Source: a virus
Virus record (IMG/VR): IMGVR_UViG_3300046328_000264
Location: 1-35,953 of that record
Strand: one strand, 5' to 3'
DNA: 35,953 nucleotides
Position 1 is the first letter of the stretch, and each line of letters starts with the position of its first letter. Position numbers and translations under genes: made by a program. The notes under the pieces were generated by a model, which did not search any database, had not been told where the DNA came from, and was given only the letters and a program-made list of their open reading frames with translations. Shown one piece after another: positions 7,287 to 35,078 of this stretch.

Positions 7287-7432
7287 GCTTTTCTATCGGA
7301 CAAAATCAAGCAAGTTTTTCAAATTCTTATCACATTTGAAAATGGAAAAGTCTGTAAACTATTGATTTAAAAAGACTTTCTATCACTTTTAATTTCATTA
7401 TCTGGGCGATAGAATAATGAATTGTTTATCGT

Positions 7433-12611: not shown

Positions 12612-12916
12612 AGTGTCTTACTTATTTCAGCGGCTGCTCGGACAATAGCTAGTCTGGTTGCTGCGTAGTGGTCATCGCCTGTTTCATCAGAAAATACCAT
12701 TACCTCATTGGCTTCCGATGTAGATGCTACAGACAGCGCCTTGGATGTATCTATCCTCATTTCCAGCGTCACAGCCAATCTAAGCGCATCACCATCGTCT
12801 GTGAGTGGATTCCAATTGCCGTGGCAATCACGCACCCAGTCCAATGGATAGCTAATGCGTGGACAATCTGGAAAATAAGCCTTAGCAGCAAGCTCTAGCA
12901 TTTCAATGTCTGTCAT
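12608..12916 (-). CDS. Hypothetical phage early protein
   Basis: 102 aa from the ATG at 12916 (AGGA at correct distance), preferred over a longer frame from 12985. The pattern W-N-P-L-T-D-D-G-D-A-L-R-L-A-V is a widespread signature of small early phage proteins of unknown role; the C-terminus DDHYAATRLAIVRAAAEIS is also typical. It overlaps the next gene by 4 nt. Confidence 0.75.
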   Translation of the reverse strand: MTDIEMLELAAKAYFPDCPRISYPLDWVRDCHGNWNPLTDDGDALRLAVTLEMRIDTSKALSVASTSEANEVMVFSDETGDDHYAATRLAIVRAAAEISKTL

Positions 12917-17565: not shown

Positions 17566-17657
17566 TAAAATAATGTCATAGCTAGGGTGGCCGCCCGAAA
17601 AGAGAATTGAACCTCCTCCTGCTATAACTTTAAATTGGTTCACATGAAAGGTTCAAC
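17566..17657 (+). promoter_or_regulatory. Structured leader of the first HNH-AP2 gene
   Basis: TAAAAT -10-like (17566-17571, no good -35), then ATAGC (17578-17582) complementary to GCTAT (17621-17625), a GGG..CCC hairpin, CGAAAA, and TTGAACC (17607-17613), which can pair with TGGTTCA (17636-17642) or with GGTTCAA (17650-17656). The second partner overlaps the AAAGG ribosome binding site of the ATG at 17658, so pairing would block translation. Confidence 0.55.
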
Positions 17658-18140
17658 ATGCTAAATCATGCGTATCTACGCGAAATACTCCACTATTCAA
17701 TTATAACTGGTCGGTTTTATTATTTGAAGTCAACAGCTAGATGCGTTAAAGTTGGCGATACAGCTGGGACTTTGCATGCAGACGGCTATAGGTTAATTAG
17801 TATAAAAAACAAAATATACAGCGCGCACCGCCTCGCATGGTTTTACTGTACGGGCGAATGGCCTCAAAATGAAATTGACCATAAAAATGGTGTTAGAGAT
17901 GCTAATTACTGGTTAAACATACGAGATGCGGATAGATTCGAAAATAGTTTTAATCGGGCTGTTAGGAAAGATAGCTCTACTGGATTTAAAGGTGTAGAAC
18001 GTGCTGGCAATCGTTTTCAAGCAAGAATAAGAGCTAATGGGAAAAGATATGGACTTGGCTTATATGCAACCCCTGAATTAGCCTATGCCGCACGAATTAA
18101 AGCTGAAAAAGAATTGCATAAAGATTTCGCGCGTCAATAG
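17658..18140 (+). CDS. HNH-AP2 homing-type endonuclease (copy 1)
   Basis: 160 aa. An HNH_3-type core has His57 (AHRLAWF), EIDHKNG with Asp74/His75/Asn77, then Asn83 and Asn87 (NYWLNIRDADRFENSFN). The C-terminus (TGFKGVERAGNRFQARIRAN, then GKRYGLGLYATPELAYAARI) is an AP2-like DNA-binding domain. Such genes are free-standing homing endonucleases that cut intron-less or gene-less alleles. It is homologous to the gene at 34590-35078. It sits alone behind a structured leader between early genes, consistent with independent insertion. Confidence 0.92.
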   Translation: MLNHAYLREILHYSIITGRFYYLKSTARCVKVGDTAGTLHADGYRLISIKNKIYSAHRLAWFYCTGEWPQNEIDHKNGVRDANYWLNIRDADRFENSFNRAVRKDSSTGFKGVERAGNRFQARIRANGKRYGLGLYATPELAYAARIKAEKELHKDFARQ

Positions 18141-34225: not shown

Positions 34226-34479
34226 GAAGCACAGAAGGCGCAATCCCTAAATACTCTGTAGGTTTAGTTCCTACAGATTCTGCATCTATGGCGGTTTTCT
34301 TAACTACTGAGTTAAAGAATATTGAAACCGCACTAAATAACAAAGACTTTTTAGAGCTAATTACAGTAGCACCAGATAAACCTAGAGACGGCATGATTCG
34401 CTTTGCAGATACTGGCGTTTTAGGTGCTTCAAAAGGGTTTTACGGCTACAAATCAGGAGCTTGGACATTACTTGGTTAA
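34222..34479 (+). CDS. Small tail-associated protein
   Basis: 85 aa from a GTG at 34222 overlapping the preceding stop (GTGA). The C-terminus RDGMIRFADTGVLGASKGFY, then GYKSGAWTLLG, is a short beta motif common at the ends of virion proteins near fibres. The protein is followed by the HNH-AP2 insertion, so it may formerly have been contiguous with the next structural genes. Confidence 0.65.
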   Translation: MRSTEGAIPKYSVGLVPTDSASMAVFLTTELKNIETALNNKDFLELITVAPDKPRDGMIRFADTGVLGASKGFYGYKSGAWTLLG

Positions 34480-34490
34480 TAGGTTAAAAT
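34462..34490 (+). promoter_or_regulatory. Promoter for the second HNH-AP2 gene
   Basis: TGGACA (34462-34467), 17-nt spacer, TAAAAT (34485-34490): five of six -35 bases match the consensus. Confidence 0.6.
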
Positions 34491-34589
34491 AAGTGCATAG
34501 CTAGATTGGGATTAATTACCCTAATCGAAAAGGCGATTCGTTACCGCTCTGCTATTACTTTAGTAACGCTACCGATAACGAGGTACACA
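34491..34589 (+). promoter_or_regulatory. Structured leader of the second HNH-AP2 gene
   Basis: Shares with the copy-1 leader CATAGCTA, a hairpin (GATTGGG/CCTAATC), CGAAAA and CTGCTAT.ACTTTA. ATAGC (34497-34501) pairs with GCTAT (34551-34555). CGTTAC (34539-34544) can pair with GTAACG (34563-34568) or, as CGTTA, with TAACG (34576-34580), which abuts the GAGG ribosome binding site. Confidence 0.6.
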
Positions 34590-35078
34590 ATGCTTACACA
34601 CGCATATCTGCGCAAAATTCTCCATTACAGTGTAATTACTGGCGATTTTTATTACTTAAAATCAACAGCCAGGCGCATTAAAATTGGTGATATAGCTGGA
34701 AGCCTAGAGAATACAGGTTATAAGCGAGTAAAAATAAACAGTGAAAAACACCAATCTCACCGCCTCGCATGGTTTTGGGTTACGGGCGAATGGCCTGAAA
34801 AAGAGGTAGACCATAAAAATGGAATTACTGACGCTAACCAATGGTTAAATCTGCGCGAAGCTACACACTCGCAGAATATGTGCAATAGAAGTATAAATTT
34901 AAATAGCACCAGTGGTTATAAGGGTGTTAGCTGGGATAATGCATCTCAAAAGTGGCATGCTCGTATTGGCTTAAATAAAAAACGGAAAAGTCTAGGGTAT
35001 TTTGATAATATCGACGATGCTTATGCAGAACGCCAAAAAGCAGAAAAAGCATTGCATGGAGGATACACTCGGTTATAA
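34590..35078 (+). CDS. HNH-AP2 homing-type endonuclease (copy 2)
   Basis: 162 aa from the ATG at 34590 (GAGG 8 nt upstream); a longer frame from 34506 overlies the leader and is rejected. HRLAWFWVTGEWP, EVDHKNGITDANQWLNLREA (HNH) and SGYKGVSWDNASQKWHARIG, then GYFDNIDDAYAERQKAEKAL (AP2) mirror copy 1 at 17658. It interrupts the structural gene series, so it is likely a mobile insertion. Its stop codon lies in the -10 of the promoter for the next gene. Confidence 0.92.
   Translation: MLTHAYLRKILHYSVITGDFYYLKSTARRIKIGDIAGSLENTGYKRVKINSEKHQSHRLAWFWVTGEWPEKEVDHKNGITDANQWLNLREATHSQNMCNRSINLNSTSGYKGVSWDNASQKWHARIGLNKKRKSLGYFDNIDDAYAERQKAEKALHGGYTRL

Follow-up and report, generated by a model that had tools for sequence, protein, structure and literature searches.

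The window, i.e. the whole analysed stretch of 35,953 nucleotides (IMG/VR record IMGVR_UViG_3300046328_000264), is a viral contig with recombination (RecT, NinB/Orf), primosomal and head/tail genes, and its DNA similarity to annotated phages is limited to an 80-base coding match. It encodes two endonucleases of 160 and 162 amino acids that are 54% identical. Both exceed the curated Pfam cut-off for HNH_3 of 24.8 bits (copy 1, 32.7 bits; copy 2, 45.3 bits), and an AP2 domain scored 22.4 bits in copy 2 against a cut-off of 33.3 bits, with no match in copy 1. Each gene is preceded by a leader of the same fold, composed of three helices (P1 to P3), a seed (S) and two target sites (S1 and S2).

Copy 1
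17566..17571 (+): -10-like box TAAAAT, from the sequence
17574-17657 (+): leader, fold common with copy 2
17578..17625 (+): int-alpA-like RNA core (RF02996 28.8 bits, E 2.3e-4; model R1 35.6 bits)
17578-17582/17621-17625 (+): P1, ATAGC/GCTAT
17585-17588/17593-17596 (+): P2, local hairpin (17585-17596)
17596-17601 (+): CGAAAA
17602-17604/17616-17618 (+): P3
17607..17614 (+): seed S (TTGAACC; TTGAACCT) in the P3 loop, complementary to S1 and S2
17619-17625 (+): CTGCTAT
17637..17642 (+): target site S1 (GGTTCA), duplex with S -8.2 kcal/mol
17649..17656 (+): target site S2 (AGGTTCAA), overlapping the Shine-Dalgarno sequence, duplex with S -10.1 kcal/mol
17658..18140 (+): HNH endonuclease gene, 160 aa (HNH_3 E 5.9e-8)

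Copy 2
34462..34490 (+): promoter-like TGGACA-17-TAAAAT, from the sequence and simple scoring
34493-34589 (+): leader, fold common with copy 1
34497..34555 (+): int-alpA-like RNA core (RF02996 21.4 bits, E 0.018; model R1 17.9 bits)
34497-34501/34551-34555 (+): P1, ATAGC/GCTAT
34504-34510/34519-34526 (+): P2, local hairpin (34504-34526)
34526-34531 (+): CGAAAA
34532-34535/34545-34548 (+): P3
34539..34544 (+): seed S (CGTTAC) in the P3 loop, complementary to S1 and S2
34549-34555 (+): CTGCTAT
34563..34568 (+): target site S1 (GTAACG), duplex with S -6.4 kcal/mol
34576..34582 (+): target site S2 (TAACGAG), overlapping the ribosome binding site GAGG, duplex with S -7.9 kcal/mol
34590..35078 (+): HNH-AP2 endonuclease gene, 162 aa (HNH_3 E 6.6e-12; AP2 below cut-off)

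A preliminary description of this DNA had proposed a common order of blocks upstream of the two genes, and every block was located in both leaders at the positions listed here. It had further held that S matches S1 as well as S2, that this complementarity is kept while the sequences differ, and that S2 sits on or next to the ribosome binding site; all of this was found in both copies, S2 of copy 1 lying 1 nt before the ATG (start 17658). As S2 coincides with the ribosome binding site and the complementarity is kept, translational control is probable. Two occurrences of the motif ATAGCTA..CGAAAA..CTGCTAT were counted in the window, against none in 100 shuffles.

Relation to the int-alpA family and gene contexts

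Both leaders are relatives of the int-alpA RNA (Rfam RF02996). At a relaxed threshold, RF02996 was the sole Rfam family for copy 1 and the top match for copy 2; the scores (28.8 and 21.4 bits, the latter being weak) fall under the gathering cut-off of 35.8 bits, and the leaders are therefore referred to as divergent relatives and not as certified members. At the gathering threshold, Rfam gave no match anywhere in the window. Membership of the C4 family (RF01695) was rejected, no C4 match to either leader being found up to E 10, and a JUMPstart match on the opposite strand (E 2.7) was dismissed as chance.

The RF02996 consensus runs P1, CUAG, hairpin P2, CGAAAA, hairpin P3, CUG, P1', a U-stretch and UAAgGG. 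Alignment with it identifies ATAGC/GCTAT as helix P1, the local hairpin as P2 and S as the loop of P3, and the P1–P2–P3 junction with CTAG, CGAAAA and CTG is present in both leaders. The suggestion that ATAGC and GCTAT form a pseudoknot enclosing S is thereby replaced by an ordinary helix P1 closing a three-way junction; the only pseudoknot would be S:S1 or S:S2, if formed in cis. The consensus P3 loop, CCuUUA, is complementary to the family's own 3' UAAgGG just as S is to S1, and in both window leaders the P3-loop seed is complementary to sequence 3' of P1'. Loci above the Rfam cut-off have an identical two-site layout. Rfam classes int-alpA among the sRNAs, and S:S1 is left unmarked in the structure line.

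A covariance model, R1, was made from 27 loci other than the two window copies, which were both kept out of its seed alignment. R1 picked exactly two places in the window, namely the two leaders (E 1.2e-7 for copy 1 and 0.008 for copy 2). Its seed alignment comprised short-P2 forms because pooling them with long-P2 forms in MAFFT gave a misalignment. The RF02996 cut-off was passed by 7 of the 18 related phage loci tested, three of which lie directly before HNH-type genes: L060 (42.5 bits), L072 (40.6 bits, upstream of a NUMOD4 plus HNH_3 gene) and L287 (44.3 bits, where the downstream gene ends at the contig end and was called HNH-type by eye). In the open-licence papers searched, int-alpA appears in one, as a list entry; neither a tested function nor a location directly before HNH genes was found described there.

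The family is not confined to this setting. Among sampled genomes, RF02996 scored above its cut-off in 17/395 of those from the order around a Yersinia genome and in 23/245 of those around a Pseudomonas genome, and pattern scans of viral contigs, with a structural filter on the matches, gave at least 127 leaders with at least 95 distinct loops. The 97 downstream phage proteins among the matches listed included 21 with a Pfam match to HNH_3, 9 to AP2, 8 to T5orf172 and 12 to DUF1376, a sample enriched for endonucleases by two of the scan patterns; PHROGs returned HNH and primosomal families. For the two scans whose patterns did not derive from endonuclease leaders, locally built models identified 14/82 proteins as HNH or GIY-like and 18/82 as DUF1376 among the matches listed, where several further proteins classed as "other" look like HNH or GIY-YIG by eye. 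The client genes are endonucleases (HNH, GIY-YIG), primosomal or primase genes, or of no known kind. As the downstream genes in the neutral scans are only partly endonucleases, the leader is a general phage device for which endonucleases are a frequent, not an exclusive, client. Among 80 HNH loci from a close-homologue protein search, the leader stands at the HNH gene itself only in L060 and in L008, the latter a copy of window copy 1, and is thus sporadic on HNH genes; at L072 it precedes a different HNH gene. Of the preliminary interpretation, a conserved RNA with probable translational control is retained, whereas an unnamed design specific to HNH-AP2 genes is not, the RNA being a divergent int-alpA found before many other genes.

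Another phage (L138) carries two int-alpA-like leaders with differing seeds, at 7354-7408 and 12631-12684, one before a DUF723/T5orf172 (GIY-YIG-like) gene and the other before an HNH-AP2 gene.

Seed, target sites and ends of the RNA

In every leader, the P3 loop was matched to the sequence leading up to the start codon; the top-scoring helix and a further one not overlapping it were recorded, and swapped leaders provided the reference. This control was chosen because any C/U-rich loop resembles an anti-Shine-Dalgarno sequence. Over 82 non-redundant loci, own leaders scored 15.56 at the best site and 12.55 at the second, as compared to 12.11 and 9.80 for swapped leaders; among the matches listed, 85 non-redundant phage loci gave 15.18 and 12.19 vs. 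11.43 and 9.25. In both sets and at either site the observed mean was reached in 0/20,000 permutations, counts that overstate independence owing to the shared ancestry of the leaders, although compensation within a subfamily is unaffected. The excess persists when the 28 HNH/GIY leaders, the 60 non-HNH leaders or 13 leaders of a single subfamily are taken alone, and it reappears in ViennaRNA duplex energies (own -10.8, swapped -7.8 kcal/mol; 0/20,000 permutations). The complementarity of S to S1 and S2 is not due to chance. The covariation that the preliminary description had drawn from two leaders is thus borne out in many, and since further homologues with compensatory changes exist, its reading is not refuted.

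Among the matches listed for the 85 phage loci, the median site positions relative to the start codon are -25..-20 and -11..-6, the second of which is therefore the Shine-Dalgarno region. The two window seeds are partly specific to their own leaders (-10.1 vs. -8.1 and -7.9 vs. -6.1 kcal/mol). Within a single gene family, seed ACGTAGA goes with sites TCTACG and CTACG in an L138 leader, and seed ACGTGA with TCACG and CACG in L293; the seed changes there are compensatory. Copies of the window seeds elsewhere in the window occur in numbers near chance expectation, and hence no other trans targets are claimed there.

Two further observations on leaders may be mentioned at this point. The seed ATTCGTTACCG of copy 2 (34536-34546) is identical in leaders of other phages (L139, L143 and L147), which precede replication-type genes (that of L147 is DUF1376, and those of L139 and L143 match none of the Pfam families tested). 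The copy 2 RNA and these RNAs might act on each other's targets. In L163 (6949-7060), a leader with intact seed and both target sites stands before an apparently frame-broken NUMOD4-type reading frame, which starts MEEIWKDIPRI and then meets a stop.

A -10-like hexamer starts 7-16 nt upstream of P1 in 62/124 phage leaders among the matches listed, as compared to 3-6 of 124 in the other 10-nt bins. Because of this enrichment just before P1, transcription of the RNA from a promoter of its own seems to begin at P1 in about half of the leaders. At the other end, T is mildly enriched right after P1' among the phage leaders listed, and at least four T follow P1 in 23/119 of them; the window copies have only three. 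Termination after P1' is possible on this basis, and the signal is weak in the window copies.

Proposed antisense function and alternatives

The P4 immunity RNA served as a positive control. The RNA found there by the C4 model (74.9 bits) has CCTGTGAA in its P3 loop, and the complementary TTCACAGG is present at two other places, one of them reading TTCACAGGAGG in front of an ATG. The layout of one seed and two targets was thus re-found, consistent with the reported CI RNA, a processed antisense RNA pairing with seqA and seqC (PMC4825925). The C4 RNA of P1/P7 has loops a' and b', of which b' partly occludes the ribosome binding site (PMC5320573). In the window, likewise, a small structured RNA lies in the leader of the gene that it would control, and its P3-loop seed has two complementary sites further along that transcript, of which one covers the ribosome binding site. 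The window leaders differ from C4 (RF01695) in sequence and fold, and from P4 in that both targets lie downstream, whereas seqA is upstream. Moreover, the C4 5' end arises by RNase P processing, whereas that of the window leaders would probably be primary, as suggested by the -10 box just before P1.

From the computed fold family, the seed with its two sites, their compensatory conservation, the -10 box and the gene contexts, we infer expression, trans action, repression and a biological purpose of the leader RNA. In our assessment, the leader probably encodes an antisense RNA that is made from its own promoter, pairs with S1 and S2 and represses its own endonuclease gene. Transcription would start at the 5' base of P1, and the RNA would be freed either by processing or at the U-rich stretch that follows P1. 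Its P3 loop would act as antisense seed for S1 (~20-30 nt before the start codon) and S2 (the Shine-Dalgarno sequence), both further downstream on the same transcript, so that pairing with read-through mRNA would block translation of the endonuclease, premature termination perhaps adding to this block. The expected outcome, on the model of P4 CI and P1 C4, is a self-repression that depends on dosage, together with specific immunity, and the purpose may be to limit a DNA-cutting enzyme or to provide immunity against an incoming copy.

The same complementarity could operate within a single mRNA, S pairing with S1 or S2 as a pseudoknot or as a hairpin sequestering the ribosome binding site. No separate RNA would then be formed, and timing, ribosomes or a factor would choose the state, as for the hairpins of T4 I-TevI and Aeh1 mobE. 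Indeed, when the whole copy-1 leader is folded at minimum energy, S is paired with S2 in cis, and structures sequestering the ribosome binding site restrain translation of the homing endonucleases I-TevI, segB and mobE (PMC2988022). Those elements share with the window leaders the restraint of a homing endonuclease by pairing at the ribosome binding site, but they are simple cis hairpins, bypassed by late promoters, whereas in the window the RNA is of a conserved family, and its seed is separate and has two targets. A single hairpin needs only one matched site, yet the second is kept (in the permutations above); the scaffold of P1–P3 with CTAG, CGAAAA and CTG, holding the seed in a loop, is conserved far past the needs of a hairpin; and the layout equals that of the processed P4 CI RNA (PMC4825925). 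The P4/P1 precedent favours trans action, and we regard switching purely in cis as rather unlikely, although it is the main rival.

The strong conservation of single-stranded CGAAAA and CTAG would also suit a junction that binds a ligand or protein and thereby frees or hides S2. Such a riboswitch-like element is improbable, given that the functional hallmark is a variable, self-matched loop, that the downstream genes have no common metabolic theme and that no Rfam riboswitch matched the window leaders. There is scarcely any likelihood that the leaders are alike merely through copying of an endonuclease gene together with functionless upstream DNA. The relatedness of the two window proteins and the sequence blocks common to their leaders agree with a duplication, but the scaffold is also preserved in independent leaders upstream of unrelated genes, where the seed and both sites change together, and the permutation tests contradict mere copying. 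Leader and gene are, moreover, separable, as the closest HNH relative found (L002, 57% identity) is without an int-alpA-like leader.

Returning to the antisense RNA proposed here, the fold itself (int-alpA, RF02996) is already known and is neither new nor endonuclease-specific. What is new is the function suggested for this orphan RNA family, together with its link to endonucleases. The chances are about even that int-alpA RNAs constitute a large, phage-wide class of self-targeting antisense RNAs, with a fold apart from that of C4, and act as portable cassettes for a copy-number-sensitive off switch. If so, a cassette would consist of its own promoter, the RNA, two target sites and a gene; the switch would serve endonucleases, primosomal proteins and primases, with rapidly changing specificity; and seed-specific immunity would be expected between phages and between free-standing endonucleases. 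With the rule of one seed and two targets, int-alpA acquires a specific mechanism that can be put to the test, and phages may possess, beside antisense immunity of the P4/P1 kind, a second form that is widespread and folded differently. For homing-endonuclease biology, the rule suggests how free-standing phage endonucleases limit their own expression.

Leader structures of other kinds were also observed. At 2420-2490, L002 shows a TATAAT box with a hairpin leader of another type (CTAGTA..TACTAG), and no int-alpA-like RNA. In the window itself, the segment 15850-15982 (+) comprises a TATAAT box and, after it, a very stable hairpin (-44.6 kcal/mol, z -6.0) that ends in eight T and directly precedes the ATG of a DUF1376/primosomal gene. 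Rfam gave no meaningful match to this hairpin, which looks like an attenuator; its inner loop, CCGCTAA, is complementary to an upstream TTAGCGG.
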